A stretch of DNA of 64,000 bases from Actinospica acidithermotolerans (GTDB lineage: Bacteria; Actinomycetota; Actinomycetes; Streptomycetales; Catenulisporaceae). Below are positions 3,227 through 56,382 of the stretch, one piece after another. Under the pieces are notes generated by a model. That model saw only the letters and a list, made by a program, of their open reading frames with translations, was not told the DNA's origin and ran no database searches. The translations under genes and the position numbers were made by a program. Numbering within the stretch: position 1 is the stretch's first letter; every line of letters begins with the position of its first letter. The stretch spans positions 1 through 64,000 of the forward strand of contig NZ_JAGSOH010000029.1 of the NCBI RefSeq assembly GCF_018139625.1, written 5' to 3'.

Positions 3227-3230
3227 GGCA

Positions 3231-5305: not shown

Positions 5306-7095
<1,790 letters not shown>

Positions 7096-7181
7096 CGGCC
7101 GGGCACCTCCTCGCGCTCCCCGCCGCCTCCCGGACGACGCGGAGCGGCTTCTTCCAGAATCGGACGCCGAGTGCGAGGAGA

Positions 7182-7199
7182 AAGGGCCGAAAGTCCCTT
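7182..7199. promoter_or_regulatory. DevR/DosR-like box in the divergent acs / phosphoribosyltransferase promoter
   Basis: AAGGGCCGAAAGTCCCTT is an 18-bp near-palindrome in the 182-bp divergent intergenic region. Its core GGGCCGAAAGTCCC read on the minus strand is GGGACTTTCGGCCC, very close to the mycobacterial DosR consensus (GGGACTTTNGNCCC). It is about equidistant from the two start codons (83 and 79 bp), so it could serve both promoters. A regulator gene is not in the window. Confidence 0.6.
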
Positions 7200-7277
7200 A
7201 TCCTCCCATTCGGGCTGATCGACTCTGGAGGTGCGGGGAAAGCGGCTCTCGCCGTACCAGCCGAAGGAGGTCGGAGC

Positions 7278-8660
7278 GTGCCCTTCATCGACCGCATCGA
7301 CGCCGGACGGCGTTTGGCGGGGTACCTGGCCTCGCGACTGCGCTCCGAGGACGTGGTGGTGCTCGGCCTGCCTCGCGGCGGTGTACCGGTCGCCGCCGAG
7401 ATCGCGGAGGCACTGCATGCGCCGCTGGACGTGCTGGTGGTGCGCAAGCTGGGCGTACCGTTCCAGCCTGAACTCGCCTTCGGGGCCATCGGCGAGGACG
7501 CGGTACGCGTGATCAATCACTCCGTCGTGCGCACGCTGCGCCTGGACGACGAGGACATCGCCGAGGTCGAGGACCGCGAGCGAGAGGAGTTGCAGCGGCG
7601 GCTGCGCCGATACCGGGACGGGCGCCCGGCGATCCCGCTGGAGGGCAGGTGCGCGCTCGTCGTGGACGACGGCATCGCCACCGGAGCGACCGCCCGCGCC
7701 GCCTGCCTCATCGCCCGGGAGCGCGGAGCGGCCCGCGTGGTCCTCGCCGTGCCGGTCGCGCCGCGCGAGTGGACCCGTCGGCTCGGGGACGCGGCGGACG
7801 AGCTCGTCTGCCTTGAGACGCCGCGCGAGTTCTACGCCATCGGCCAGTTCTACGATGACTTCGCCGCGACCTCGGACGCGGAGGTGCGCGCCTGCCTGCG
7901 GCGGGCCGGGCGGCCCGGGTCGGCCGCCGGCAGCGAGGCGGCACGGGCTCCGCGGCCTCCCGCGGCCCAGGCCGCCGATCCCGAGATCGTGCTCCCCGTG
8001 CACGACGGAAAGCTGGCCGCGCACCTGGTCACCCCGCGCGAGGGCGGCGGGATCGTGATCTTCGCGCACGGCAGCGGAAGCAGCAGGCACAGTCCGCGCA
8101 ACCGCTATGTCGCGGCGGCCCTCAACGGTGCCGGGTTCGCCACGCTGCTGCTCGATCTGCTCACCGAGCAGGAGGAACGCGGCCGGGCCGGCGTCTTCGA
8201 CATCGAGTTGCTCGCCGAGCGGCTGCGGGCGGCCACCGCCTGGGTGGGTGAATGGCTGGGCGAGCTGCCGATCGGGTACTTCGGAGCCAGCACCGGAGCG
8301 GCGGCGGCGCTGTGCGCGGCGGCCGACCCCGACTGCCCGGTGCGCGCGGTCGTGTCCCGTGGCGGACGCCCCGATCTCGCCGCCTCGTGCCTGCCGTCGG
8401 TCACGGCACCCACCCTCTTGATCGTCGGCGGCCGCGATGAGGCGGTCATCGACCTCAACCGGCGGGCTCAGGCGATGCTGCGCTGCGCGAACCGCATGGA
8501 GATCGTGCCCGGGGCCACTCACCTGTTCGAGGAGCACGGCGCGCTCGAGCAGGTCACCGAGCTGGCAACCGACTGGTTCGCCGCGAACCTCCGCGGCGCG
8601 GCGGGCGGCGGCCCGGCCGCGAGCGGAACGCCGAGCCCGAGGAGGGCGTCACGTGGTTGA
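7278..8660 (+). CDS. Phosphoribosyltransferase-alpha/beta hydrolase fusion protein
   Basis: A 460-residue two-domain protein. Residues 1-210 form a type I phosphoribosyltransferase domain with the PRPP loop CALVVDDGIATGATA. After a Pro/Ala linker, residues 230-445 form a dienelactone hydrolase-like alpha/beta hydrolase with VIFAHGSGSSRHSPRN, the nucleophile elbow GYFGASTGAAAA, the Asp in GGRDEAV and the His in PGATHLFEE. The same domain pair occurs in mycobacterial Rv0571c, a DosR-regulon protein. The start at 7278 is preceded by GAAGGAGG. It overlaps the downstream stress-protein gene by 8 nt. Substrates are unknown. Confidence 0.85.
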   Translation: MPFIDRIDAGRRLAGYLASRLRSEDVVVLGLPRGGVPVAAEIAEALHAPLDVLVVRKLGVPFQPELAFGAIGEDAVRVINHSVVRTLRLDDEDIAEVEDREREELQRRLRRYRDGRPAIPLEGRCALVVDDGIATGATARAACLIARERGAARVVLAVPVAPREWTRRLGDAADELVCLETPREFYAIGQFYDDFAATSDAEVRACLRRAGRPGSAAGSEAARAPRPPAAQAADPEIVLPVHDGKLAAHLVTPREGGGIVIFAHGSGSSRHSPRNRYVAAALNGAGFATLLLDLLTEQEERGRAGVFDIELLAERLRAATAWVGEWLGELPIGYFGASTGAAAALCAAADPDCPVRAVVSRGGRPDLAASCLPSVTAPTLLIVGGRDEAVIDLNRRAQAMLRCANRMEIVPGATHLFEEHGALEQVTELATDWFAANLRGAAGGGPAASGTPSPRRASRG

Positions 8661-42844: not shown

Positions 42845-42887
42845 CATCGGGTCGTGTCCGCAATCATCGCGCGGACACGACCCGATG
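42845..42887. terminator. Strong hairpin ending the transporter operon
   Basis: Perfect 17-bp arms (42845-42861, 42871-42887) with a 9-nt loop lie 13 bp after the last ATPase stop. The XRE regulator gene converges from the other side, 84 bp away, so it may work in both directions. Confidence 0.8.
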
Positions 42888-42971
42888 GTCTGAGAATCCA
42901 CCTGGAGCTGTTCGGGCACGTCAAGACCAGCAAGAAGCGCACCAAATTGGGTGCGCAGCCTGGTTGGCAGG

Positions 42972-43709
42972 CTACAGGGCCGACTCCACCGTGATCACGA
43001 TCGTGCTGAGGCCGTGGCGCAGGTCGCGGAAGACGAGGCAGCCGTCCCGGTCGACCATCTTCCACACCGCGAAGCTCGTACCGGCGACCAGCGGGGCGCG
43101 CAAGGGGACGCTGACGTCGACCACTTCTCCGGGTTCGGTGCGCGGGATCGGGACGCTTGGCGCAGATGCGAGGACCGTCGGGCCGTCACACGGGCCGACA
43201 CGTGCCAGTTGCATGCCCACCCAGGGTTGGCCGCCGTCGTTCCGGATGCGCCAAGTCTTGGTGATCTCCGCGCCCCGCTCGACTACTGCGCCGTCCGGTG
43301 TCACGTCCGCTATAAAGCTGCTGCGCTCGCCGTGAACTCCGACCGCGGCTCCGGATGGTTCCTCCGTCGGCCAAAGTTGTAGCGGAGTCTGCCCTGGCGG
43401 CAGGGGCCTGCCCCCGATCATGGGAGCTCGGGCTGTCAGGTACATCGTGCTCAGCATCCCGTCACCGCCGAAACACGTGTCGTAGCGGGTCACCAGTACA
43501 TGGCTGGGCCGATCGCGTCCGCGCTCCACCAGGGAGAGGTGGCTCTTGCTCGCGCCTACCCTTTCGGCAGCGGCGGCGAGGCTGGCCCCCGCCCGTTCAC
43601 GCAGGAGCCTCATCGAGTGCCCGAGCAGTAGCCAGGTTTCGCTCTTGTCGACCAAGATCCGATTCACCCCCACGTTTGGGCATCGCCAAACCTCATCAGC
43701 AGCGTACAT
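42972..43709 (-). CDS. XRE-family regulator with NBR1 FW-like (four-tryptophan) domain
   Basis: A protein of about 245 residues. An N-terminal helix-turn-helix of the XRE type (MRLLRERAGASLAAAAERVG, then ASKSHLSLVERGRDRPS) is followed by an Ig-like domain (VVERGAEITKTWRIRNDGGQ, then PGEVVDVSVPLRAPLVAG). The latter resembles the NBR1 FW domain, known in eukaryotic autophagy receptors and found in some bacterial DNA-binding proteins. The start is uncertain: the ATG at 43709 is used, but GTG codons near 43667 are possible, and the frame is open to 43874. An inverted repeat TTTGG-N6-CCAAA at 43675-43690 could be an autoregulatory site. It borders an atypical patch on its upstream side. Confidence 0.6.
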   Translation of the reverse strand: MYAADEVWRCPNVGVNRILVDKSETWLLLGHSMRLLRERAGASLAAAAERVGASKSHLSLVERGRDRPSHVLVTRYDTCFGGDGMLSTMYLTARAPMIGGRPLPPGQTPLQLWPTEEPSGAAVGVHGERSSFIADVTPDGAVVERGAEITKTWRIRNDGGQPWVGMQLARVGPCDGPTVLASAPSVPIPRTEPGEVVDVSVPLRAPLVAGTSFAVWKMVDRDGCLVFRDLRHGLSTIVITVESAL

Positions 43710-43979
43710 TCTGGCAAGTGTCCGAGGCGAGAATATCCCTGATCCGGCGACGCGGCTTCCTACTCTGAGATGTACAGGCGTCCAGGGAAAGGAGAGTTTG
43801 GTTCCGCGCAGCGCACAGCCCGTTCTGCTCCTGCTCTGACCACGCACCCTGCCAGTCGTACGAATGTCGCCCATCAGACCCCGGCAACATCACAGGCCAC
43901 ACCAATCTCGCAGGCGGCCAGGGCAGTAGATTTTTTCGCACCACTTATTGCGGCATCTGTAGAGGTGAGGAGGAAATTC
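43710..43979. other. Gene-free, AT-richer stretch between the divergent XRE and zinc-ribbon genes
   Basis: No convincing ORF is found in these 270 bp; the plus-strand frame open from 43770 has no recognisable protein before 43980. The stretch holds a T6 run (TAGATTTTTTCGC) and is visibly poorer in GC than its surroundings near the right end. It probably holds the promoters of both neighbouring genes. Confidence 0.5.
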
Positions 43980-44141
43980 GTGACCGTGCACGAGGAGCGT
44001 TATTGCCCTCAATGCAAAAAGAAAGTTAGAATGATTCGCTGCGAAGTCTGCAAGGGGAGGGGCGGCACCGCGACAACGCAGTGTCGTAATGCGTGCAAGC
44101 AGCATGGCTGGCTGTGCCCTAAGCATGGCAAGGACTACTGA
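43980..44141 (+). CDS. Small zinc-ribbon protein, unknown function
   Basis: A 53-residue protein from the GTG at 43980, with AGGAGGAAATTC placed ideally upstream. It has three metal-ligand pairs: RYCPQCKKK, IRCEVCKGRGG and a C-terminal CRNACKQHGWLCPKHGK. The middle CxxCxGxG resembles one half of a DnaJ zinc finger. Codons ending in A or T (AAA, TAT, ATT, AGA) are much more frequent than in neighbouring genes, suggesting foreign origin. It precedes another unknown gene by 91 bp. It may bind nucleic acid or protein; no family name can be given. Confidence 0.6.
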   Translation: MTVHEERYCPQCKKKVRMIRCEVCKGRGGTATTQCRNACKQHGWLCPKHGKDY

Positions 44142-44232
44142 AAGATAAGCCGCGGCCAGGCCGCGCGAATTTCCGCGGTTCCGCAATCTCGTATTTAGTT
44201 TCAGCTGGGGCAAAGGCATCTTGGAGGTCGTA

Positions 44233-44673
44233 ATGCGGCAAAAGGGCGTCGTTTTCACTACAACGCTGGATATACCGGCGTTGGCCAATGTCTTCAAGGG
44301 AACGGGCGAGGCCGCCATGGGCGGGGTGAGGAGGGTACTCAAGGTGGCCCCCCGGCTGACCGGAGCGGGAGATAAGATTGGTTTCTACACGCCGAAGTTC
44401 GACCCGGTTTGGTCCGGCGTACAGGAGCAGCCCGACTTTGCGGTGGGGGTAAACATCCTCAAGTTTGGCCCAGGTTTCGCTCCCGGCAGCGGTCCGGGTG
44501 ACGGTACGCACGTTCACATGTATGTGAAGAACAATGGAAATGCGCGCAACGTTGAACTGGTAGCCCAGCATGGGATGACGGATGCCAGGCTTGCCACCAA
44601 GCTCGTCTCGCGATTCCTTGATTCGTTTCGGGCGGCGGACCCAGGTCTGAGAATCAACGAATCAAACATCTGA
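44233..44673 (+). CDS. Protein of unknown function in the low-GC patch
   Basis: A 146-residue protein that I do not recognise. GGAGG lies 7 bp before the ATG at 44233, so it is likely translated. It starts RQKGVVFTTTLDIPALANVF, has a Gly/Pro-rich middle (FGPGFAPGSGPGDGTHVHMY) and an amphipathic C-terminal helix (RLATKLVSRFLDSFRAADPG). No signal peptide or membrane segment is seen. Codon use is less GC-biased than the neighbours. It may form a small unit with the zinc-ribbon gene upstream. The 223 bp between it and the helicase gene hold no recognisable element. Confidence 0.55.
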   Translation: MRQKGVVFTTTLDIPALANVFKGTGEAAMGGVRRVLKVAPRLTGAGDKIGFYTPKFDPVWSGVQEQPDFAVGVNILKFGPGFAPGSGPGDGTHVHMYVKNNGNARNVELVAQHGMTDARLATKLVSRFLDSFRAADPGLRINESNI

Positions 44674-44896
44674 GTCCGTGCCCACCGCCGAACCCGCTGC
44701 AAAACGCAGACTGACGCCACCGCAGGCAGCCGACGCGGAGTGAGCCCGCTGGGACCGGGGCGGGCGGGTGGGTAACGCACAGCACGCCGAACCTACGAAC
44801 ACTGGCCCCAGCGGCACGACGCAGCGCCCATAACCACCCCGCTGCCGAGGCGAAAAATCACAGCGCCGACCACAGGAATCGCGGCCCGGTCTCTCC

Positions 44897-46231
44897 CTAT
44901 CCCGCGCCCAAGTGCGCAAGCACTGCCTGGTGCGCGGCCCAGCCGTCCGGAAACTTGACGGCGACGCCCAGGCGGACGGGCTCGGCGTGGGGGTGGGCGT
45001 CGAGGAGGTCGGCGATGCCGGCGCGGCCTACGACGATGCACGCGTGACGATGCCTCGATAGCAGGACGCAGAGGCGGCCGGTCTCGAGGTGGAAGGCGGT
45101 CGCGTCGCGGCGGCCGGACAGGGGGTGCAAGACGATGGTGACGTCGTACTCGCGGCCCTGGAGGCGGTTCGCGGTGTCGACGGTGACGTCGGCCAGGCCG
45201 CGTGCGGCTCGGTCGGGGCGGGCGAGAGCGGCGCGGACCGCGGCGGCCTGGTCGCGGTGGGCGGTGCCGATGGCGATGCGGTCGGGGGTGACTTCGCGCT
45301 CGTAGCCGGCGGCGCGGTCCACGGCGATGGCACGGCGCTGGACCAGGCGGTCCGCCAGCGCCGCGCAGGCCTCGACAGCCTCGGCGTCGGTGCGGATGGT
45401 GTGAGCGGCAGGGAGGCCGTGCCAGGACCAGCCGGTCTCGGCGGCCAGTTCGAGCGATTCGTCGAGATCGGAGGACGAGGCCGCGACCGCGAAGCTCAGG
45501 GCTCTGTCTTCCAGGTCGCTGCCCGCGTCGAACGGGGTGAAAGGGTAGAACGCCTTCGCGACCAGCGGCGCGGCCGTCGCGGGCAGGCGCCAGGAGTACG
45601 GGAGGCGGTGCACCGGCAGGTGCGGGTTGTGGGCGCGGACGACGGCTACGGCGCTGTCGCTCGGGTCCCAGGGCGATCCGGCCCACGCGTCCGTGTCGAC
45701 TGTCGCGAAGGGATCGAGTTGGCCGGGGTCGCCCACGAACAGGGCGGTGCCGTTCGCGAAGCGCGGGGCTACGGCGAGCAGGCCGTCGGAGCGCATCTGG
45801 TACGCCTCGTCGAGGATCGCCCAGGGGAACTCGCCCTCTTTGACCAGCGCCCACTTGGCGGCGGTGGCGAGGACGATGCCGGCCGCCGCGAGTTCGGGGA
45901 GCTTGGAGGAGAACGCCAGGTTCGGGCCGCGGAACGGGGCCAGCCGCTCGGGGACCTCGTAGTCGCCCGCGGTCAGGCGGCCGAGGACGAGCGCCGGGTG
46001 CTTCTGGGCGATCTTCTCGACGAGGTCGTCGACCTGCTCGTTCGTCTGGGCGACGATCATCACGCGCTCGCCGTCTCTGGCCAGGCGTTCGGAGAGTTCG
46101 ACGACGAGGGTGGACTTGCCGGCCCCGGGCGGCGAATCGACGATGACGCCGCGGTGGGCGCGGGAGAGCAGGTCGGCGGCCACGGCCTCGATGACGGCCC
46201 GCGCTTCAATGGATCGGGTTGACGCCGTCAT
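44897..46231 (-). CDS. Upf1-like SF1 DNA/RNA helicase
   Basis: A 444-residue SF1-type helicase. Motifs in order: Walker A VIVDSPPGAGKSTLVVEL, motif Ia VMIVAQTNEQVDDL, Walker B WAILDEAYQMRSDG, motif III LFVGDPGQLDPFA, motif IV YSWRLPATAAPLV, motif V TVDTANRLQGREYDVTIV and motif VI LLSRHRHACIVVGRAG. The helicase core is nearly the whole protein, without accessory domains. The ATG at 46231 is preceded by GAAGGGGG. It is the last gene of an operon with a Cas4-like nuclease and an unknown protein. It probably unwinds DNA in repair or defence; an RNA role cannot be excluded. Confidence 0.8.
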   Translation of the reverse strand: MTASTRSIEARAVIEAVAADLLSRAHRGVIVDSPPGAGKSTLVVELSERLARDGERVMIVAQTNEQVDDLVEKIAQKHPALVLGRLTAGDYEVPERLAPFRGPNLAFSSKLPELAAAGIVLATAAKWALVKEGEFPWAILDEAYQMRSDGLLAVAPRFANGTALFVGDPGQLDPFATVDTDAWAGSPWDPSDSAVAVVRAHNPHLPVHRLPYSWRLPATAAPLVAKAFYPFTPFDAGSDLEDRALSFAVAASSSDLDESLELAAETGWSWHGLPAAHTIRTDAEAVEACAALADRLVQRRAIAVDRAAGYEREVTPDRIAIGTAHRDQAAAVRAALARPDRAARGLADVTVDTANRLQGREYDVTIVLHPLSGRRDATAFHLETGRLCVLLSRHRHACIVVGRAGIADLLDAHPHAEPVRLGVAVKFPDGWAAHQAVLAHLGAG

Positions 46232-46464
46232 CACAGGACCCCCTTCCCGGAGCGACGGGCGGGTCGGGTGCCGGCACGGCCAACGGCTCCAGTGCCAGCG
46301 GGGCGATCGGCTCCGGCGCGGCCAGCGGCTCCAGTGCCAGCGCGGCGATCGGCTGCGGCACGGCAATCGGCTCCGGCACGGCCAACGGCTCCGGCTCCGC
46401 CCCGGCCAACAACTCCGGCGCCGGCGCTCTCTTCGGCGGGTGACAGTGCCATCGCTAGCGCCAC
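46231..46464 (-). CDS. Possible 77-residue Ala/Gly/Arg repeat ORF between operon genes
   Basis: A GTG at 46464 inside the end of the 504-residue gene opens a frame whose TGA overlaps the helicase ATG (TGATG). The product is almost entirely Ala, Gly, Arg and Asp, with 14-residue repeats such as RAGADRPAGTGAVG encoded by 42-bp DNA repeats. The exact end-to-end overlap would couple translation through the gap. It may simply be an open frame in repeat DNA, so the call is tentative. Confidence 0.25.
   Translation of the reverse strand: MALAMALSPAEESAGAGVVGRGGAGAVGRAGADCRAAADRRAGTGAAGRAGADRPAGTGAVGRAGTRPARRSGKGVL
46273..46394. repeat. 42-bp tandem repeats between the unknown gene and the helicase
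   Basis: Two 42-bp units (46273-46314, 46315-46356) that differ at a few bases are followed by partial units at 46357-46374 and 46375-46394. All share GGCACGGCCAACGGCTCC-like cores. They occupy the 223-bp gap inside the nuclease-helicase operon. Confidence 0.85.
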
Positions 46465-47969
46465 TCCTCGGCCTGGTCCTCAGCGCGGGCGACGTGCGGC
46501 CACGGGGGGCCGCCGTGCGTCCACGGGGTCTGATCGGCGTCCGGGAGCTCGGGGCGGGTGCCGCGCTGCTCGGCGAGGAACGTGGCGTAGCAGCGCTCCT
46601 CGCCGACCGCCGGGACGCTGCCCGCCTCCGGCGTCTTGCCGCGGCCCATGCCGCTCTGCAGCTCGAGTTCGACCTCGAAGCCGCCCGCCTCGGCCGGCCG
46701 CACGGCGAGCAGCCGGACGGTCTGGTTGACGCGCGCGGGGCTGGCGAGCTTGACGCCGGGGCGCAGGATCACCTCGTCCTGCGTCTGCATGACCACCAGC
46801 GGACGGGGCCAGGCGCGCTTGCCCTTGATCTCCTGGCGCTCGGCGTCGACGAAGGTGATCCGGCCCGCGAACGCCTCGCCGCCGACGCGGTAGCGGGCGA
46901 GGACGAGCGGGTCGTCGATGGCCTGAGTGCGGTCGTAGCTCTGCTGCGCGGATTCCAGGTCGGCGAGCCTGCGCGCGGCGGCTACGGCGCTGGGGCGCTT
47001 GGGCTGCGGCGGGGCGCCGTCTTCTATCCCTGTCATGAAGTCGGTGAAGCGGCCGCGGTCCACCTGCCAGCGCAGTTCGTCGGACGCCGCCGCGGGCATC
47101 GCGCGCAGCACGTCGATGCCGCGCCAGACCGTTTCCCACGTGGGCTCCAGCTGCGCGGCGAGCGCGGCCCGCAGCTCCTCCTCGGCCTTCGCGACGGCGC
47201 GCATGTCGTCCGCCGCACGGGCCTCCTCCTGCGCGCGCACGAGGGGCGCGAGGACTCCGGTGTCGAAGGCGGGGTCGGTGGCCGGGCCGGCCGGGGGCAC
47301 CGCGTCGGGGTCCTCGGCGAGCAGGGCCGCGGCCGCGCCGCTCATACCGTCCGGCGGGTCGATCCAGCTCAGCAGCGCGGGCAGGTGCTGGTCCTCCAGC
47401 GCGCTCTGGCCGGTCGCCCAGTGCTGGGCGAGCACGGACGTCAGGGCCAGGCAGACGCTCGATCCGGGCATCGGCGCGCGGTCGTCGGCGAACCAGGTGA
47501 GGTAGCGTCCGAGCAGCGGCACCCGCGCGTCCACCGGGTACGGTCCGTCCACGGTCCGGAAGCGCGCGGAGCGGCCGAGCAGCCGCAGCGCCTCGACGCC
47601 GCCGGGATTGGGCAGGATCAGCTGCGGCGCGTCGGTGCAGCGCTCCCACTCCTCGTGGTTCTTCGTCGCCTCGACGGTCTCCGTGTGCTGACGCCGCGCG
47701 TCGATGTACGGCACGAGCAGTTCGGCGAACGCGGTCAGGAACTCGAAACGCTGGTCGCGGTTGCGCGGCTGGGCCACGACGAGCAGCGTCGGCGCGTCGC
47801 GATCCGTACCGGCCATCACCGCGAGCGGCGCCGCCGCCTCGCCGGCCTGCATCAGCGGGATGACGACGAGCGGTTCGTCGGAGACGTGCACGTGCCGCAC
47901 CGCGGTGATCGGCACGGCGCGGCCGCCGCGAGCCGCCCGCGCCCGCGCGAGCGCCGTCAGGGTGCTCAT
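46455..47969 (-). CDS. Protein of unknown function in the nuclease-helicase operon
   Basis: A 504-residue protein I do not recognise. It opens with an alpha/beta region (TAVRHVHVSDEPLVVIPLMQ, APTLLVVAQPRNRDQRFEFL). The middle is helical and Ala/Glu-rich (VRAQEEARAADDMRAVAKAE), and it ends in a beta-rich part (RITFVDAERQEIKG, VILRPGVKLASPARVNQTVR) that could be an OB- or SH3-like nucleic-acid-binding fold. No signal peptide or membrane helix is seen. The ATG overlaps the stop of the nuclease gene by 4 nt, so it is tightly linked with it and with the helicase. A bridging role in a complex is inference. Confidence 0.6.
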   Translation of the reverse strand: MSTLTALARARAARGGRAVPITAVRHVHVSDEPLVVIPLMQAGEAAAPLAVMAGTDRDAPTLLVVAQPRNRDQRFEFLTAFAELLVPYIDARRQHTETVEATKNHEEWERCTDAPQLILPNPGGVEALRLLGRSARFRTVDGPYPVDARVPLLGRYLTWFADDRAPMPGSSVCLALTSVLAQHWATGQSALEDQHLPALLSWIDPPDGMSGAAAALLAEDPDAVPPAGPATDPAFDTGVLAPLVRAQEEARAADDMRAVAKAEEELRAALAAQLEPTWETVWRGIDVLRAMPAAASDELRWQVDRGRFTDFMTGIEDGAPPQPKRPSAVAAARRLADLESAQQSYDRTQAIDDPLVLARYRVGGEAFAGRITFVDAERQEIKGKRAWPRPLVVMQTQDEVILRPGVKLASPARVNQTVRLLAVRPAEAGGFEVELELQSGMGRGKTPEAGSVPAVGEERCYATFLAEQRGTRPELPDADQTPWTHGGPPWPHVARAEDQAEEWR

Positions 47970-49234
47970 CCGTCGGCCTCGGACCCGCCGGCGGCCCGGG
48001 GCGCGACCCGCAGCGCCTCGTCGTACGCTCGGGCCGCGGCACGCAGCAGCCGCGCCGCTTCGTGCTGGCCGGAGCCGGCTCCCGCGGTCCCGTCCGCGAT
48101 CTCAAGGGCCTCGGACAGGGATTCGATCCCGCCGAGCGCGTCGCGCACCGAGCGGCCGAGCGCGTCGGCGGCGCCCGCGGCCCTGGCCTCGGAGCGGCAG
48201 TGGAACGCCATCTCGCAGTTCGTCACGCACTCCGGGGCGTATCTGGCCTCGATCATCGTGAGCGACTTGGTCAGCTCGACGGCGCTGCGGTGCTCGCGTC
48301 CCGGCTCGCCCTTCGCCTCGGGCGGGTCGACCGCGAGGTCGAAGTCGACGGCCGGATCGAGATCCGCGATCAGCGCGCCTATCCGCGGCAGCCTGGCCAG
48401 CTGGCGTTCCACGGCGGCGATCTGCCGGCGCACGTCGAGCAGGTGCGCGCTGGGCTTGTTCGCGAAGTCCGTCGGGCAGATCAGCAGCACGTCGTCGGCG
48501 ACGATCGCGGGATCGACGCCGAGTTCGGTGAAGAGTCTGCGCAGCGCGAGGACGTACACGGCGGCCTGGGTGGCGGCGGCGCCCACCTTCGCCGGATCGG
48601 CCTGGCCGTCGATGACCGCGAAGGACTTCACCTCGGCGACGTAGAGCCGCGCGGGGGCGCTCGCGGACGCGTCGGCGGGACGGGCGCTGAGGGCGACAAC
48701 ATCGGGTTCGACGTACGCGGTGCGCCCGCCGACGTCGAGCCGCAGCAGCGGATGGTCGGCGAGCAGCGGCTCACCGGCCGCGACCCGCGCGAACGCCTGG
48801 CGGGTGCGCTCGTAGCGCGCGGCGCGGTCGAGGTTCACCGGCGCGGCCGGATCGGCTTCCGGTTCGACGCCGAGGTCGACGTATTCGTGCTCGGGGACGT
48901 CGAAGCGCAGCGGCTCGGCGCGCAGCAGTTCGAGCAGTGCGGCGCAGTTGTCGGCCTTGACCTGCTTCTCGAAGGCGAGGCCGCGGGTGATCGCGAACGG
49001 CGACTGGCCGTATCGCGCCGGGAAGCCGATCCGCTCCGCGAGCTTGCGCTTGTCCACGCCCGCCGCGTCCAGCACGGCCCGGCGCGAGCAGCCGGGATTC
49101 ACGGTGAGCGCCGCGATCGTGCGCGCGTCGTGGCTGCGCGGCGGTACCGGTCCGCGCAGAGCGTCGAGCCGCGCCGCGGTGCCGGCGGGCCCCGGTGCGG
49201 CTGTGGCCTGAGGAACGGAAGGTGACATGGGCAT
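47966..49234 (-). CDS. Cas4/RecB-like PD-(D/E)XK nuclease with Cys cluster
   Basis: A 422-residue protein with a RecB/Cas4-type nuclease core: AYVEPDVVALSARP supplies the metal-binding Asp, LYVAEVKSFAVIDG the ExK pair, and AATQAAVYVLALRR the QxxxY motif. The C-terminal CVTNCEMAFHC, with an earlier GCSRRAVLD Cys, could hold a [4Fe-4S] cluster as in Cas4, AddB and Dna2. The ATG at 49234 is preferred; a TATCGT hexamer lies about 10 bp upstream. It is the first gene of a three-gene operon ending in an SF1 helicase. No CRISPR array or cas genes are present, so a CRISPR adaptation role is unlikely. Confidence 0.75.
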   Translation of the reverse strand: MPMSPSVPQATAAPGPAGTAARLDALRGPVPPRSHDARTIAALTVNPGCSRRAVLDAAGVDKRKLAERIGFPARYGQSPFAITRGLAFEKQVKADNCAALLELLRAEPLRFDVPEHEYVDLGVEPEADPAAPVNLDRAARYERTRQAFARVAAGEPLLADHPLLRLDVGGRTAYVEPDVVALSARPADASASAPARLYVAEVKSFAVIDGQADPAKVGAAATQAAVYVLALRRLFTELGVDPAIVADDVLLICPTDFANKPSAHLLDVRRQIAAVERQLARLPRIGALIADLDPAVDFDLAVDPPEAKGEPGREHRSAVELTKSLTMIEARYAPECVTNCEMAFHCRSEARAAGAADALGRSVRDALGGIESLSEALEIADGTAGAGSGQHEAARLLRAAARAYDEALRVAPRAAGGSEADG

Positions 49235-49348
49235 TTGCCTGCCCACGATAGCCCAAAGCGGCGTTCCCGGGCTGATTAAGGGGCGTTTCAAGGGCGTTTT
49301 CGGCACCGGGAGCCGGCGCCGACCCCGAGCCGCCGCAGTGCTCTGCGG

Positions 49349-51817
49349 TCAGCAGGCCAGCTGCGGAGACGGTTCGGAGTCGGCGGAGCGGCTGAGCTCG
49401 ACCGGCTGCTCGCACCAGATCGTCTTGCCGCCCGCGACGGGCCGGCTGCCCCAGCGGCGGGAGAGCGCGGCGACCAGCATCAGGCCGCGGCCCCCCTCGT
49501 CGAAGGCGTGGGCGCGGCGCACGTGCGGCGCGGTCTCGCCGGCGTCGTAGACCTCGCAGATGAGCGTCCCGTCGAGCTTGCCGGCGCGGCGGCGCGGCTG
49601 ATCGAGGATCAGGCGCAGCCGGATCGGCGCGCTGCCGTAGCGGATCGCGTTGGTCACCAGCTCGCTGACGATCAGTTCGGTGGTGAAGGCGAGTTCGTCG
49701 AGGCCCCAGCCGGAAAGGCACCGGCTGACCCGCGCGCGCATCTCGCCGACGATCGCCGGGTCGACGGGCACGTCCCACGTGGCGACCTGGTCCGGGTCGA
49801 GGGCGTGGGTGCGGGCGACGAGCAGGGCCACGTCGTCGCTCGGCGGCGTCGTGAGCATCGCGTCGAGCAGCGAGTCGCACAGGTCCTCGAGGACCGCGCG
49901 GGGCTCGGTCATCGCCTCGCGCAGCTGCGCGAGGCCGTCCTCGGGGTTGTTCTCGCGCGACTCGATCAGCCCGTCGGTGTAGAGCACGAGGGTGCTGTCC
50001 GGCGGGAGCTCGACCTCCGTGCTCTCGAACGGGACGCCGCCGACGCCGAGCGGCGGCCCGGTCGGCACTACGAGGATCTCGGGCGCGGCCCCGGGGCTCG
50101 CCACGATGGGCGGCGGGTGTCCTGCGGAGGCGATCGTGTACCGGCGGGTGACGGGGTCGTACACGGTGTAGAGGCAGGTGGCGCCGGTCTCGCCGTCGCC
50201 GGACTCGGCGAGCGCCTCCTCGTCGGCCTCGCCGGACAGCTGGGTGACGATGTCGTCGAGATGGGTGAGCAGCTCGTCCGGCGGCAGGTCGACGTCGGCG
50301 AGGGTGCGCACGGCGCCGCGCAGCCTGGCCATGGTCGCCGAGGCGTGCACGCCGTGCCCGACCACGTCGCCGACGGCGAGCGCGACCCGGCCGCCGGAGA
50401 GCGGGATGACGTCGTACCAATCGCCGCCCACGCCGATCTCGGCGTCGCCGGAGAGGTACGGCAGGTACCGGCTGGCCACGTCCACGGCGGCCAGCTCGGG
50501 CGGCCTGCTCGGCAGCAGGCTCCGCTGCAGCAGGACGGCGGTGTTGCGCTCGCGGGTGTAGCGGCGGGCGTTGTCCAGCGAGAGCGCCGCCCGCGCGGCC
50601 AGCTCCCCGGCGACGCGCAGGTCGCCCTCGGCGAAGTGCTCGGGACGGCTGCGGACGCACATCAGAACGCCAAGCAGCGTCCCCCGGGCACGCAGCGGCA
50701 CGGCGATCATCGTGTTCAGCCCGTAGTTCACGTAGCTGTCGGTCCGCTCGGGGCTCTGCGCTATCCAGCGGGTGAACCCGGGCTCGTCTCCCCGGCTGAG
50801 CACCCCGCGGCCGAGGGAGAGGCAGCGCGCGACCGGCGAGAAGTCGGGGTAGCTGTGCACCTCGTCGAGCTGCACGCCGAAGGGGGTGTCCGCGGGTTCG
50901 GCCCGCTGCGCGACCCGGCGCAGCGTGATCTGCTGCGAGGACTGCGCCGGGGTCAGCTCGCTGCCGGTCAGGACCGCGTCCAGCAGGTCGACCGTGGCCA
51001 GGTCGGCGAACTTGGGGACGATCACCTCGGTGAGCTCCTGCGCCGTCTTGGCCACGTCCAGCGAGGTGCCGACGCGGGTGCCGGCCTCGCTGAGCATGTC
51101 GAGCCAGGTGCGTGCCCAGTACTGGGTGGTGTCGTCGAGCATCGCGGCGACCACGCCGGTCACCCGTCCGTGCGCGTCCCGGAGCGGCGAGAACCAGACG
51201 ATCCAGGAGCGTGCGGAGGTCTCCCCCGGCGGGGTGTGGCGGACGCTGCGCTCCAACGCCCGTCCGGACCGCACGACGCGCGCCATCCGGTTGTCGACGT
51301 CGCGGTAGAAGTCGCTCGGATGCATCTCGGACAGCCGGCGGCCCTGCACGTCCTCGGGAAGGGCGAGCAGGCGGCGCAGCTCCTTGCTCACGCACACGAA
51401 GCGCAGATCGGCGTCGTGGACGCCGACCGCGATCGGGAACTGGTCGATCGCGCGTTCCAGCAGATGCGGGTCGGTGAGGCCGGTGCCGAGCGGTTTTGCC
51501 ACGAGCACGCGGCGCAACTGCGGCGTACCGGGGTCGGCGTCGTCGACGGTGACCTCGGCCGGCACCGGGTGGCCGTCCCGATGGCGCAGCAGGAGTGCGG
51601 CGCCGCTCGGCTCGGCCGCGTGGTCCGCGGACGGCTCGGCGAACAGCAGTTCCCGCAGCGGCCGGCCGACCGCCTCGGCGGCCTCGTAGCCGAGCAGCGA
51701 TCGGGCGCCGGATCCCCACCCCGTGACGACGTCGCCCTCTCCGAGCATGACGAGGGCGACCTCGGGTGCACCGGAGACATCGCGGCCTCGATCCCCCGCG
51801 CCGACGTCTGAGGTCAT
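49349..51817 (-). CDS. SpoIIE-type PP2C phosphatase with PAS, GAF and HATPase domains
   Basis: An 822-residue multidomain regulator of partner-switching signalling. Order: two PAS-like domains (about 20-110 and 115-235, HDADLRFVCVSKELRRLL), a GAF domain (about 255-410), a SpoIIE phosphatase domain (about 440-650, GVGGDWYDVIPLSGGRVALA and VLYTDGLIESREN) and a C-terminal RsbW-like HATPase domain (ELIVSELVTNAIRYGS, DEGGRGLMLVAAL). It can therefore both dephosphorylate STAS antagonists and bind ATP or a sigma factor. GGAAGCTC precedes the ATG. The STAS and sigma genes upstream on the same strand are likely partners. The 235 bp before it hold no recognisable gene. Confidence 0.92.
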   Translation of the reverse strand: MTSDVGAGDRGRDVSGAPEVALVMLGEGDVVTGWGSGARSLLGYEAAEAVGRPLRELLFAEPSADHAAEPSGAALLLRHRDGHPVPAEVTVDDADPGTPQLRRVLVAKPLGTGLTDPHLLERAIDQFPIAVGVHDADLRFVCVSKELRRLLALPEDVQGRRLSEMHPSDFYRDVDNRMARVVRSGRALERSVRHTPPGETSARSWIVWFSPLRDAHGRVTGVVAAMLDDTTQYWARTWLDMLSEAGTRVGTSLDVAKTAQELTEVIVPKFADLATVDLLDAVLTGSELTPAQSSQQITLRRVAQRAEPADTPFGVQLDEVHSYPDFSPVARCLSLGRGVLSRGDEPGFTRWIAQSPERTDSYVNYGLNTMIAVPLRARGTLLGVLMCVRSRPEHFAEGDLRVAGELAARAALSLDNARRYTRERNTAVLLQRSLLPSRPPELAAVDVASRYLPYLSGDAEIGVGGDWYDVIPLSGGRVALAVGDVVGHGVHASATMARLRGAVRTLADVDLPPDELLTHLDDIVTQLSGEADEEALAESGDGETGATCLYTVYDPVTRRYTIASAGHPPPIVASPGAAPEILVVPTGPPLGVGGVPFESTEVELPPDSTLVLYTDGLIESRENNPEDGLAQLREAMTEPRAVLEDLCDSLLDAMLTTPPSDDVALLVARTHALDPDQVATWDVPVDPAIVGEMRARVSRCLSGWGLDELAFTTELIVSELVTNAIRYGSAPIRLRLILDQPRRRAGKLDGTLICEVYDAGETAPHVRRAHAFDEGGRGLMLVAALSRRWGSRPVAGGKTIWCEQPVELSRSADSEPSPQLAC

Positions 51818-52052
51818 GAGCTTCCGTTGTAGGAGGTCGAACTACCTGCTCAATTCTCCTCCGGCGCACAGGTGCCTGCATCCCGCTGGGTCCGGATGGC
51901 TCAAGGCCCGCCGCTCGGTCCCCCAGGTCGTCGGCGCCTCGGTCCTCCGGCGGGACCCACAGGATGCCGCCGAACTCGCTGCAGGAGTACGAGGTAGCCG
52001 AGGCGGCGGTCGGCATGGAAGGAAGCGCTCCTCGAAGATCTTCTGGTGCCGC

Positions 52053-52571
52053 CTAAGGCACGCTGTGGGGCATCGCGCCTTCGATTGCGAAGACCGGCAG
52101 CAGCGTCCGGGCCCGGGCGAGGGTCAGCAGCCGCTGAAGCTGAGGATTGACACCGGTCAGCCGCAGCCAGCCGCCGGCGGCGACCGCCCTGGCCGCGGCC
52201 GCACGCAGGATCCCGAGGCCGGCGGCGTCCGTGAAGACGAGACCGGTGACCTCGATCGCAACCCTCGGGCAGTCGTCGAGAACGCCGCGCAGGACGTAGT
52301 GCAGCTTGCAGCCGGTCGCGAGATCGAGTTCGCCCGTCAGGATCAACCGGGCGTAGCCCTCCCGAAGCTCGACCTCGACGGCCAGCGGCCGGACCATCGA
52401 GTCCACGTGCGCCGCGTCGTACGGCAGGCTGGACGTGGGCAGGCCGAACGGGCACGCCGCATCCGTTTCACCGGTGAAGTGGAACGCGCAGCCCTGGCAG
52501 GGCAATCGCCGGTTCACGGCGTGCGGAGCCGGCCTGCGCACGAGGTCGCGGGTGATTCGGGAACTGAGCAC
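52053..52571 (-). CDS. STAS-domain anti-sigma factor antagonist with N-terminal Cys cluster
   Basis: A 172-residue protein. Residues 20-45 contain LPCQGCAFHFTG and ACPFG, three cysteines that could bind a metal; the STAS domain follows (EVELREGYARLILTGELD, then VTGLVFTDAAGLGILRAA). The loop that normally reads DSSG, with the phosphorylated Ser, is DAAG here, so control by a canonical RsbW-type kinase is doubtful. The GTG at 52571 lies 4 nt after the previous stop. It is the third gene of a sigma-unknown-STAS run, with a SpoIIE phosphatase after it. Confidence 0.75.
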   Translation of the reverse strand: MLSSRITRDLVRRPAPHAVNRRLPCQGCAFHFTGETDAACPFGLPTSSLPYDAAHVDSMVRPLAVEVELREGYARLILTGELDLATGCKLHYVLRGVLDDCPRVAIEVTGLVFTDAAGLGILRAAAARAVAAGGWLRLTGVNPQLQRLLTLARARTLLPVFAIEGAMPHSVP

Positions 52572-52575
52572 CAGA

Positions 52576-53262
52576 TCACGCTGCGATCGCCAGGACGCCG
52601 GGCAGCTGTGCGGAGGGCCACGGGATGTCCCCGAACTCCGCCTCGTCGGAGTCGACCAGGACCTGGTTGACGGCGACCTCGACATCGATCGGCAGCAGCG
52701 GCTTCATGCCGCGCCGGCACTGCGCGAGCAGCGCGTGGTAGACGGAATCCGGCAGCAGCGGCCCGCGCGGGACGGCCCGGCTCGGCGTGGAGTCGCCCTC
52801 GCGCAGCGCGTTCGACTCGGCGTGCCAGTACTCGGCCTGGTCGCTCTCCCCGCGCTGCGCATGGTTCAGGTACAGGCAGTACGCGCCGAGGTGCACGCCG
52901 GCCCCGGCGGCGAAGCGCCACCAGAACCGGCTGGCCGCGACACGGCCGGTCAGGTGAAGCAGGCAGCCGAAGACGAGCGCGCCCTCGGGCTCCGGGTCGT
53001 CCTTGTCGAACAGCCGGGCGAGCACCGCCGCCGCCTTCGTGTCGCCGATGACGAGGGCGCTGGTGAGATTGAGCTCGTATTCGAACTGCTCACGCCTGGC
53101 CTGCGGCGCCCCGTCGATCGACGTCGGGAGTTCCAGGTCGCGGGCCGCGCGCACGATCCGCTCGGCGGCGCTCGGCCGCCCGCACACGTCGCGGGCCGGC
53201 GCGATGTACGCGTCGGCTAGAAGCCTGTCGATCGGCCGGATCGGGCCGTTGCTGGAGTACAC
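52576..53262 (-). CDS. Conserved sigma-factor partner protein, unknown function
   Basis: A 228-residue helical protein with a Trp/Tyr-rich core, AASRFWWRFAAGAGVHLGAY, then CLYLNHAQRGESDQAEYWHA. I recall this pattern in Streptomyces genes placed next to sigma factors, but there is no assigned role. The helix-loop-helix spacing looks TPR-like. The GTG at 53262 follows the sigma stop by 10 nt; GAGGG stands upstream. It may modulate the sigma factor. Confidence 0.6.
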   Translation of the reverse strand: MYSSNGPIRPIDRLLADAYIAPARDVCGRPSAAERIVRAARDLELPTSIDGAPQARREQFEYELNLTSALVIGDTKAAAVLARLFDKDDPEPEGALVFGCLLHLTGRVAASRFWWRFAAGAGVHLGAYCLYLNHAQRGESDQAEYWHAESNALREGDSTPSRAVPRGPLLPDSVYHALLAQCRRGMKPLLPIDVEVAVNQVLVDSDEAEFGDIPWPSAQLPGVLAIAA

Positions 53263-53272
53263 GATTCTTCGC

Positions 53273-53836
53273 CTATCCCTCGGAGTCGGTGATGTGCAGG
53301 AGATGGCGCGCATTGGCTTCCTGCTCGAGCCTGTTGCGGGCATGGCGCAGGTTCGACCGCACCGAACCGGCCGCGATGCCCAGGGTCTCGGCGATGCGCT
53401 CCTCATCGAGGTGCATCACGTACATCAGCACCATCACCTCGTGCTGCCGCTCGGGCAGGTCGAATATGCCGCGGTAGAGCCACAGCGACTCCTGAAGGGC
53501 CTCGAACTGGCCGGACCAGGCCACCGCGCGCACCGCACGCTCGAACGCCGCGAACCGCACGAAGTCGGAACCGGCGTCGCGCTCCTCGAGCCACCGCTCC
53601 AGCACCTCCTTGTACAGATCCCACGCGAAGCGCTCGACGCTCTCCTGCGCCAGCGCCTGCGACCAGGAGTTCACCAGCCGCCAGGTGAAGTAGTTGGTGA
53701 TGTTCTCGGCGTCCCGCCCGTCGGCGGTGTGCAGGAACGCGTAGTGGCTCCACGTGCCCTGGTGCTTCTGGTAGAACGCCTCGAAGGTGATCCGGTCGCG
53801 ATCCGAGCGCGACCGGGGGTCCGTGCCGCCGGTCAC
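53273..53836 (-). CDS. ECF-like sigma-70 family factor
   Basis: A 187-residue sigma-70-like protein. Region 4 is clear: LPERQHEVMVLMYVMHLDEE, then RIAETLGIAAGSVRSNLRHA. Region 2 (FEAFYQKHQGTWSHYAFLHT and ADGRDAENITNYFTWRLV) is divergent, with only remnants of the usual core-binding motif. The GTG at 53836 is chosen because similarity begins at DRITFEAFY. No anti-sigma gene with a zinc motif is adjacent; the following gene and the STAS/SpoIIE proteins are candidates for its control. Confidence 0.75.
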   Translation of the reverse strand: MTGGTDPRSRSDRDRITFEAFYQKHQGTWSHYAFLHTADGRDAENITNYFTWRLVNSWSQALAQESVERFAWDLYKEVLERWLEERDAGSDFVRFAAFERAVRAVAWSGQFEALQESLWLYRGIFDLPERQHEVMVLMYVMHLDEERIAETLGIAAGSVRSNLRHARNRLEQEANARHLLHITDSEG

Positions 53837-54152
53837 GGGTGCTCCCGCGCGGGCCCGCGGGCCCCGTGGTGATCTCTGTCGATGGTCACTTGCGGGTTCG
53901 CTCCATATCTCTGTCCGCGGCGCTCCGACGGAGGCCGAACGACGGGATACGAGCCCTGCGAAAGGGCCGCGCGACCAGCAAATCAGCCGGATCGCCGATT
54001 TGTGCAAAACTCCGTGCGAGAAATCCGCGCGCGACGGAGGCCGCGCGCCCCCGCCGGCGACCGCGACATCCGACTCAGTGTAATGAGACACTGGGACGGC
54101 CCCGGTTCCGGGGCCAGGGTGAAGGATCGACACGGTCAACCGAGGAGACCAC
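53837..54152. other. 316-bp divergent intergenic region with two inverted repeats
   Basis: Between the divergent sigma and methyltransferase genes lie CAGTGT-N6-ACACTG (54076-54093) and GGCCCCGG-TT-CCGGGGCC (54098-54115). The first could be an operator. The second is a perfect 8-bp-arm hairpin 38 bp before the methyltransferase start. The left part has an AT-richer patch (AGCAAATCAGCC, GATTTGTGCAAAAC) likely to hold promoters. No ORF is convincing. Confidence 0.5.
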
Positions 54153-54971
54153 GTGGACGCGAACGCCATCGACCTCCAGCTGGACCGTCCGCACTCGGCG
54201 CGGATGTACGACTACTACCTCGGCGGACGCACGAACTTCACCGCCGACCGCGAGGCGGTCGGCAAGGTGATGGCCGCCTTCCCGGCCGCGCTGGTCGCCG
54301 CCCGCGCCAACCGCGACTTCATGCACCGCTCCGTCCGCTACCTCGCGGAGCACGGCATGGACCAGTTCCTCGACATCGGCACCGGCATCCCGACCAGCCC
54401 GAACCTGCACGAGGTCGCCCAGAGCGTCACCCCCGGCGCGCGGATCGTCTACGTCGACAACGACCCGATCGTGCTCACCCACGCGCAGGCGCTGCTCACC
54501 AGCAGCCCCGAGGGCCGCACCGCCTACGTCCACGCGGACCTCGGCGAGCCCGAGTCGATCCTCGCCTCCCCCGAACTGGCCAAGACCCTCGACCTCGGCC
54601 GCCCGGTCGCCCTGAGCCTGAACGCCGTGCTGCACTTCATCGCCGACGGCCGCGAGGGCCTCAGCGCCCACCAGATCGTCGACACGCTCAAGGACGCCCT
54701 GGCCCCCGGCAGCGCGCTGGTGATCTCGCACGGCACCGCGGACTTCTCCCCGGTCGAGGCGACCGAGACGACCCAGATCTACCGCGCCGTCGGTACCTCG
54801 GCCCAACCGCGCAGCCGCAAGGAGATCGAGGCCTTCTTCGAGGGCTGGGACCTCGTCGAGCCCGGCATCGCCGTCACCCACCGCTGGCGCCCCGACGAGG
54901 CCGACCTGCTCTCCGACATCAGCGACGCAGAAGCCTGCTGCTACGCCGCCGTCGCCATCAAGCCCGCCTGA
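54153..54971 (+). CDS. DUF574-type SAM-dependent methyltransferase
   Basis: A 272-residue methyltransferase of the family abundant in actinomycetes (DUF574). It starts IDLQLDRPHSARMYDYYLGG, with the family signature YDYYLGG, and has the SAM motif FLDIGTGIPTSPNLHEVAQ near residue 71. A GTG start with GAGGAG upstream is used. Family members number dozens per streptomycete genome and their substrates are unknown. It is divergent from the sigma cluster and convergent with the P450. Its 3' end is partly duplicated downstream. Confidence 0.9.
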   Translation: MDANAIDLQLDRPHSARMYDYYLGGRTNFTADREAVGKVMAAFPAALVAARANRDFMHRSVRYLAEHGMDQFLDIGTGIPTSPNLHEVAQSVTPGARIVYVDNDPIVLTHAQALLTSSPEGRTAYVHADLGEPESILASPELAKTLDLGRPVALSLNAVLHFIADGREGLSAHQIVDTLKDALAPGSALVISHGTADFSPVEATETTQIYRAVGTSAQPRSRKEIEAFFEGWDLVEPGIAVTHRWRPDEADLLSDISDAEACCYAAVAIKPA

Positions 54972-55090
54972 TCAGGAACCTCCCACTCAGGCCGCCAACC
55001 GCACATCACCCGAACGAGCCCGACCTGCTCTCCGACATCAGCGACGCAGAAGCCTGCTGCTGCGCCGCGCTCAGGCCGCCAACCGCACGC
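54901..55090. repeat. Partial duplication of the methyltransferase 3' end and spacer
   Basis: About 47 bp at 54901-54947, within the last codons of the methyltransferase, recur at 55020-55066 with one mismatch (period 119). CTCAGGCCGCCAACCGCAC then occurs at 54986-55004 and 55070-55088 (period 84), so the second copy has lost 35 bp. The TCAGGCCGCC piece also matches the end of the convergent P450 gene at 55147. Confidence 0.85.
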
Positions 55091-55146
55091 GAGACAGCAA
55101 GGTCTCACCGCCGCACTCCACGGCGCACGGAGCCGCCGCGACCCGC

Positions 55147-56382
55147 TCAGGCCGCCGGGGCGCCCGTCCGCACCGGCAATGTCTCGTAACCGCGGAGCAC
55201 GAGGCGGTCGCGCCGTTCCGGCTCGGCCGCCTGCTCGATCTCGGGGAAGCGGGCGAGCAGCTTCTCGAAGGCCACCCTGCCCTCCAGGCGGGCCAGGCCC
55301 TGGCCCAGGCAGTAGTGGATGCCGGCGCCGAAGCTGAGCGGGACGTTGTCGGGGCGCGTCGGGTCGAAAACGTCGGGGTTCGCGAAGCGCTTCGGATCGC
55401 GGTGTGCGGCGCCGATCAGCAGCATCACCTGCTCGCCGCGGGCCACCGGGTGGCCGCCCACGTGCGCGTCCTCGGTGAGCGCGAAGCGGCTGGTGAGCTG
55501 TACCGGGGAGTCGTAGCGGAGCACCTCTTCGACGTACGCGGCCACCGGGATCTCGCCCTTGCGCACGCGGCCGAGCACCTCGGGGTGCCGGAAGCCGAGG
55601 TAGAGCCCGTTGCCGAGCAGGTTCGTCGTGGTCTCGAAGCCGGCGACCAGCAGCAGCAGGAGGTTGCCGAGCAGCTCGGCGTCGCTGAGCCTGCCGTCGT
55701 GCGCGTCGTTGGCCTGGACCATGGCGCTGACGAGGTCGTCCTGCGGCTGCTCGCGACGGCGGGCGGCGAGCTCGGTGAAGTAGGCGCGCAACTCCAGGGT
55801 CGCGGCGTCGGCGGGGCCGAAGTCGTCGAAGCTGTCGGTCAGCTCCAGCACGAAGGTCAGGTCGTGAGCGAGCGGGCGGAAGCGGTAGCGGTCCGCCTCG
55901 GGGACGCCGAGCATCTCGCAGATCACGCTCACCGGCATCCGGAACGCGAAGTTCTCCATGAAGTCGACCGGCTCGCCGCCGGCGCCGAGCGCGGCCAGCT
56001 CGTCGAGCAGCGCGTCGGTCATCCGCTCGATCGCCGGTTCGAGCCCGGCGACGCGGCGCTGCGTGAACGCGGAGCTGACCAGCGAGCGGACGCGGCGGTG
56101 GCCGGGCGGGTTCATCAGCAGCATCGAGCGCGAGATGCTCTCCATCGCGCCGTCCGGCAGGAGCAGGCCGCGCCACTCCGCGGGCAGCATGTCGAAGTCC
56201 ATCTTGCCGAACGCGTTGTCGCGCAGGATCGCGTTGATCTCGTCGTAGCCGGTGCACAGGTGCATCGGCCAGTCCTTGACCTTCCTGATCGCGCCGAGCT
56301 CCCGCGCGGCGGCGTAGAGCGGATAGGGCTCGCCCCTGCCCTCCGGCGTCATCAAGGCGCCGATGATCGCTTCGGCCTCCAT
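55147..56382 (-). CDS. Cytochrome P450
   Basis: A 411-residue soluble bacterial P450. It has the I-helix motif LLVAGFETTTNLLGN, the K-helix EEVLRYDSPVQL (ExxR) and the heme-binding loop LSFGAGIHYCLGQGLARLEG with the proximal Cys. The I-helix has the usual acid-Thr pair as E-T. Substrate is unknown. No ferredoxin gene is adjacent. It is the only P450 in the window and is not part of a recognisable biosynthetic cluster; the convergent methyltransferase might act in the same pathway. Confidence 0.92.
   Translation of the reverse strand: MEAEAIIGALMTPEGRGEPYPLYAAARELGAIRKVKDWPMHLCTGYDEINAILRDNAFGKMDFDMLPAEWRGLLLPDGAMESISRSMLLMNPPGHRRVRSLVSSAFTQRRVAGLEPAIERMTDALLDELAALGAGGEPVDFMENFAFRMPVSVICEMLGVPEADRYRFRPLAHDLTFVLELTDSFDDFGPADAATLELRAYFTELAARRREQPQDDLVSAMVQANDAHDGRLSDAELLGNLLLLLVAGFETTTNLLGNGLYLGFRHPEVLGRVRKGEIPVAAYVEEVLRYDSPVQLTSRFALTEDAHVGGHPVARGEQVMLLIGAAHRDPKRFANPDVFDPTRPDNVPLSFGAGIHYCLGQGLARLEGRVAFEKLLARFPEIEQAAEPERRDRLVLRGYETLPVRTGAPAA

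Follow-up and report, generated by a model that had tools for sequence, protein, structure and literature searches.

PMC8195603 describes CATRA and GT4 domains as components of conflict systems, and PMC12657218 names CATRA. Pairs of a DUF397 gene and an HTH gene, another small arrangement relevant here, are termed toxin-antitoxin in PMC7159879. Literature cannot be searched by sequence, and by such terms we found no paper that ties them to the protein family described below.

The locus analysed here lies in a stretch of 64,000 nucleotides from Actinospica acidithermotolerans (the window). It is an islet of about 2 kb in which a regulator gene is divergent from two small genes, encoding a zinc-ribbon protein of 53 residues and a protein of 146 residues. 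That the islet is accessory is well supported; the 146-residue protein belongs to an uncurated family whose link to immunity is suggestive.

An islet absent from two related genomes

The region 43710-44673 has a GC content of 57.8%, compared with 71.3% for the whole window, and the eight lowest-GC sliding windows of 964 bp (n=3152) all start within 43601-43761. Third-position GC is 67% in the zinc-ribbon gene, 69% in the 146-residue gene and 75% in the regulator gene, versus 91-95% in two neighbouring genes. GGAGG stands 6-7 nt ahead of both GTG 43980 and ATG 44233. The first-pass annotation had described this region as a patch with sharply deviating base composition and codon use and with strong ribosome sites. 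All three features are borne out, the region being the GC minimum of the 64 kb. The patch is therefore real, but its extent was drawn too small: it measures about 2.0 kb (42.89-44.90 kb) and includes the regulator gene. Over the full islet (42892-44896) the GC content is 62.7%. Only 3 of 1240 windows of the same length lie below this value, and the lowest such window that does not overlap the islet is at 67.0%.

The boundaries were placed by comparison with two genomes of the same genus, G001 and G002:

42888-44896, no strand: islet absent from both same-genus genomes (blastn against L054 in G002 and L055 in G001, flanks collinear)
42845-42887, no strand: terminator-like perfect inverted repeat of 17 bp (loop of 9 nt) that closes the oligopeptide ABC transporter operon upstream and marks the left boundary
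42887-42901, plus strand: left copy of a 15-nt direct repeat (14/15), a possible but weak edge repeat, from a repeat search
44644-44658, plus strand: right copy of the 15-nt direct repeat (14/15), within the last codons of the 146-residue gene
44897-46366, minus strand: helicase gene, flank outside the islet, 83% and 85% identical in G001 and G002

In both sisters the oligopeptide transporter on the upstream side is collinear with that of the window and is followed, at the corresponding place, by hairpins of a similar terminator-like kind. By blastn, transporter and helicase are separated by 239 bp in G002, 147 bp in G001 and about 2.1 kb in the window. Because both flanks are conserved and collinear in the sisters, with only 0.15-0.24 kb between them, the DNA from about 42.89 to 44.90 kb, including the regulator gene, is extra. 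The left edge falls between about 42812 and 42892, its right counterpart in the interval from about 44674 to 44901. The sister genomes, whose comparison over 42.9-44.7 kb had been proposed as a check, thus both have an empty site. The regulator has no match in either of them; it had been regarded as a mere neighbour of the patch and is instead a part of the islet. The nuclease-helicase operon, put forward as a possible context, lies outside the islet and is conserved in the sisters. In G004, no transporter aligned on the left flank.

Features of an integrative element at the islet amount to one weak 15-nt direct repeat near the edges, without a recognised recombinase. The repeat was matched in 0 of 200 mononucleotide shuffles of stretches chosen post hoc, after it had been seen. 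As regards the earlier idea of mobile cargo, no integrase or transposase was recognised among the islet ORFs (ORF list, Pfam). Promoter and terminator scans of the locus gave counts not clearly above those of shuffles, and an Rfam search returned nothing useful.

Beyond the islet, the flanking helicase has a weak PADLOC match to the model MkoA (1.4e-17). Beside it, the stretch 46455-49306 encodes proteins of 504 and 446 residues without a Pfam match above cut-off, and its DNA aligns to the sisters. The window is longer than the sisters at a second place, 49257-55184, with 5.9 kb compared with 2.4 kb in G002 and 1.5 kb in G001.

The genes of the islet

The islet itself contains the following features:

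42972-43673, minus strand: regulator with HTH_31 and NBR1-type Ig domains (Pfam PF13560, 3e-11; PF16158, 1.2e-14)
43674-43979, no strand: divergent intergenic region between the regulator gene and the two-gene operon, presumed to be the promoter/operator region
43980-44141, plus strand: zinc-ribbon protein of 53 residues with 7 Cys (translation), with a 66% identical homologue in L012
44151-44165, plus strand: short GC-rich hairpin between the two small genes (from a terminator scan that listed it on the minus strand; count not above shuffles)
44233-44673, plus strand: 146-residue protein of a rare actinobacterial family (translation, homologues, structure model)

The regulator frame is open to 43874, and its likely start is a GTG near 43667-43673. 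For this protein, PADLOC returned only generic HTH models; it shares at most the HTH with the Streptomyces regulator.

The zinc-ribbon gene is separated from the 146-residue gene by 91 bp. For both small proteins, nothing was found above cut-off in Pfam or NCBIfam and nothing significant in PHROGs or PADLOC; weak sub-cut-off matches such as DZR (0.011) were disregarded, and no PADLOC model matches either protein at E <= 1. Against the sequences of solved structures, the zinc ribbon gave nine weak matches (best E 0.11) and the 146-residue protein none. The first-pass annotation could name no obvious relatives for the two proteins; matches to curated models likewise fell short of cut-off for both.

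A relative of the zinc ribbon is nevertheless present in L012, a 4.4-kb contig that also carries a DDE_Tnp_1_4 transposase gene. The two proteins are identical at 35 of 53 codons (66%), with dN 0.24 and dS 1.99, and the zinc-ribbon gene in L012 is 804 bp from, and divergent to, a homologue of the 146-residue gene. Weaker relatives occur in G011 and G026, and profile matches in G479 and G531 look like chance frames inside other genes. In three other loci (L021, L066 and L067), a 57-residue gene with 4-5 Cys is found 28-43 bp upstream of the 146-residue homologue. Small ORFs with such cysteine pairs are rare, numbering 13 in 321.8 kb (17 loci). Leaving out five that lie beside a 146-residue homologue and three in two loci fetched for the zinc ribbon, the chance background is 5 in 286.8 kb (15 loci), or about one per 57 kb. 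Homology between the 53-residue and 57-residue types is unsupported (E 0.19 in comparison), so what connects the two zinc-ribbon types is their position and kind. Most carriers of the 146-residue family have no close zinc ribbon (L007, L008, L011, L014, L015, L016 and L020).

A rare family of 146-residue proteins

A sensitive profile search of the genome collection with an alignment of the 146-residue family found six loci, compared with none in an earlier single-protein scan. These are a Micrococcales MAG (L011), a Propionibacteriaceae MAG (L012) and four named Streptomyces. Used as the sole query, the protein matched 3 of 391 genomes of the order; a ten-row profile matched 6 of 391, and a three-row profile 3 of 396 genomes across the phylum, the window's own genome being counted once in each figure. 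No homologue was found in the 13 other genomes of the host's family that were searched. The gene is thus accessory rather than core, judged by this absence and by the empty site in two sisters. The closest relatives were found in other orders. In phages and plasmids, tblastn gave no match for either small protein, and a search of viral contigs with the 146-residue alignment A1 gave no confirmed relative.

Twelve distinct loci carry the family: the window, L011, L012, L020 and eight in Streptomyces (G076, L007 and L013 are one locus counted once; L001, L017 and L062 are the window itself and were dropped). Streptomyces is given by name for four of the eight, and the genus was inferred for G016, G077, G140 and G340, which share a genus code with G076. 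Matches to the Streptomyces proteins range from E 6e-16 to 7e-21 by tblastn. A divergent subgroup joins the family by profile comparison (98.7% probability, E 1.7e-16), with both alignments shallow. Similarity extends over the whole length and includes an HMY-x7-R region; H95, M96, Y97, G102 and R105 are shared by all 10 rows of the alignment. Between the window and L011, dN is 0.45 and dS, which is saturated, 3.16. At the level of codons, the excess of third-position changes shows purifying constraint on the two small proteins.

The 146-residue protein was modelled twice from 7 sequences, with pLDDT values of 76 and 77 and a pTM of 0.74. Both models predict a beta-alpha-alpha-beta4-alpha-beta sandwich. 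Among its best structural neighbours, the spermine synthase N-domain (AdoMetDC-like) matches the model with a VIA-align Z of 10.7 (rmsd 3.4 over 99 residues, 8% identity; second model, Z 9.2), and SAD kinase KA1 with a Z of 9.7 (rmsd 3.0 over 90 residues, 4% identity; second model, Z 8.5). Many unrelated rows follow close behind these matches, and Foldseek found nothing at E <= 0.001, likewise in a viral structure library. The predicted KA1-like or AdoMetDC-like resemblance is moderate and assigns no function.

Conflict genes lie near the family in Streptomyces

Genes of conflict systems lie within 5 kb of the 146-residue homologue in all eight Streptomyces loci, but beside none of the four others (the window, L011, L012 and L020), of which L012 spans only 4.4 kb. 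A defence function, which the first-pass annotation had raised, is suggested by association in Streptomyces and finds no such support at the other loci, the window included.

Across the Streptomyces loci, just two gene arrangements are conserved. One, seen in L007, L008, L014, L015 and L016, consists of TPR, TIR_2 and HTH_31-TPR genes, and the homologue follows the HTH-TPR gene in 5/5. Three of these five TIR-type loci add a GT4-conflict gene, an NB-ARC-TPR (STAND) gene and a membrane protein of 238-263 residues. The other arrangement, represented by L021 with homologues at L066 and L067, comprises CATRA-N/C fused to GT4-conflict, CHAT, CATASP and NB-ARC-TPR, together with a divergent HTH gene. 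These assignments come from Pfam for the neighbours in L007 and L021 and for two L008 genes, and from tblastn for the other loci; CATRA-N in G140 and G340 was assigned by the CATRA-N domain model itself, and genes in the relatives' loci were called with a simple third-position script. For the Streptomyces neighbours scanned, PADLOC returned only generic HTH models.

The 238-263-residue membrane family has no Pfam match (L007 8991-9782, L014, L016, L021, L066 and L067) and adjoins GT4-conflict genes in several loci. The 238-residue protein, common to these six Streptomyces loci, is absent from the window's genome. It was rejected as a tracker of the 146-residue family, since 172 of 209 genomes in the order carry it. 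Eight conflict-type copies of the membrane protein were examined, three of them with a GT4 gene, and none has a 146-residue homologue beside it. The 146-residue family is optional even in conflict loci.

Other neighbours were noted at individual loci. In two of the three CATRA loci, the HTH gene and the zinc ribbon flank a gene for a protein of 223-237 residues that has no Pfam match (L021 9322-9993, L066 7215-7928). In L008 (G077), a DUF397 gene and a DUF5753-HTH gene are located near the homologue (6826-7913). In L011, a chloramphenicol phosphotransferase-like gene (2923-3459; PF07931, 6.4e-53) lies about 1 kb upstream of it.

The window's genome (G000) has no match to CATRA-N (PF20269), which is found in 5 of the 14 genomes searched, sister G001 among them. 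In G001, a CATRA-N + GT4-conflict gene is located at C90 14690-16945, and no 146-residue homologue was found in that genome. GT4-conflict matches in the window's genome were rejected as evidence of a conflict glycosyltransferase, the Pfam model matching 14 of 14 control genomes. Neither the CHAT, CATASP and NB-ARC proteins of L021 nor the TIR, HTH-TPR and TPR proteins of L007 match anything in the window by tblastn at 1e-3.

Discussion

Our main reading, to which we give a probability of roughly 0.45, is that the locus is an acquired islet whose HTH-Ig regulator is divergent from a zinc-ribbon and small alpha/beta pair, and that this pair serves conflict systems of actinobacteria as a stand-alone accessory. 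The insertion, of about 2.0 kb, would have separated the terminator of the oligopeptide ABC transporter operon from the end of the helicase operon. The zinc ribbon and the predicted alpha/beta protein would cooperate, probably as a complex, and may serve such systems as a sensor, adaptor or restraint. Repression by the HTH-Ig protein may keep the pair silent, to be lifted by a cue such as infection. Because the pair stands alone in the window, it would have to function unaided or with a partner whose gene lies elsewhere.

The pair could instead be regulatory or metabolic cargo with no conflict role, its context in Streptomyces stemming from one or two ancestral insertions beside conflict loci. 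The lack of conflict genes at the four non-Streptomyces loci is consistent with this, and since the Streptomyces loci form just two arrangements, they may reflect two independent events rather than eight. However, the arrangements differ both in conflict core (TIR/HTH-TPR versus CATRA/CHAT) and in family subgroup, one being divergent. The association must therefore have arisen, or been kept, at least twice, and we consider cargo without a conflict role somewhat unlikely. It is also unlikely that the islet is a selfish pair of the toxin-antitoxin kind, in which one small protein is the toxin, neutralised by the other or by the HTH protein, and addiction keeps the islet in place. Such a pair would fit two small genes in one operon beside a divergent HTH regulator, the patchy distribution of the family and the location of the L008 homologue near a DUF397-HTH pair, a type treated as toxin-antitoxin in PMC7159879. 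Yet the zinc ribbon is missing near the 146-residue gene in the seven loci listed above, so neither small protein is an obligate partner of the other, and no toxin family is matched in Pfam or PADLOC.

The large partners seen in relatives' loci are missing from the window, raising the question whether the islet is what decay has left of a larger conflict locus and is no longer functional. We doubt this strongly: all three frames are open, both small genes have good ribosome sites, L012 keeps both small proteins in an unrelated lineage, and changes between lineages are concentrated at third codon positions. An empty site by itself, here in two same-genus genomes, cannot separate insertion from deletion, and the region might be native DNA that was lost in both sisters and drifted in composition, with nothing acquired. 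This is very improbable given the lowest GC of the window, the absence of a 146-residue homologue from the 13 other genomes of the family and closest relatives that belong to other orders. Composition and this absence favour gain by the window's lineage over loss in the sisters.

If our main reading of a conflict-system accessory is correct, a protein family that no curated model covers recurs in two kinds of conflict locus in actinobacteria, and it also moves outside such loci, accompanied by a zinc ribbon. Its two proteins, of 53 and 146 residues, would offer a small experimental handle on systems built from giant STAND, CHAT and TPR proteins, and the 146-residue family would be a marker for finding further conflict loci. 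A bolder reading, which we think improbable, is that the zinc ribbon and the alpha/beta protein form a minimal, portable immunity module, present in CATRA systems of Streptomyces (its alpha/beta half in TIR systems there), working by itself in other Actinomycetota under the control of an HTH-Ig switch, and passed from lineage to lineage in an islet of about 2 kb. If so, it would be an unrecognised sub-unit common to several actinobacterial immune systems. If the conflict link is wrong, the islet is ordinary acquired accessory DNA.

Compared with known systems, the islet resembles DUF397-HTH pairs in combining small protein genes with an HTH gene in a mobile actinobacterial neighbourhood, but neither of its small proteins matches DUF397 (Pfam, E <= 1), and the pair in L008 is a separate neighbour of the homologue. 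With the TIR/HTH-TPR/TPR loci the window shares the 146-residue protein; it differs from them in that the islet has no TIR or TPR gene and its regulator carries an Ig domain in place of TPRs. Because the window locus lacks every large conflict gene, we reject the islet as a CATRA or TIR system in its own right. It has no CATRA, CHAT, CATASP, STAND or GT4 gene alongside, whereas the three Streptomyces CATRA loci encode CATRA-N/C-GT4, CHAT, CATASP and NB-ARC-TPR; what the islet has in common with all three is the 146-residue protein, a zinc-ribbon gene directly upstream and a divergent HTH regulator.
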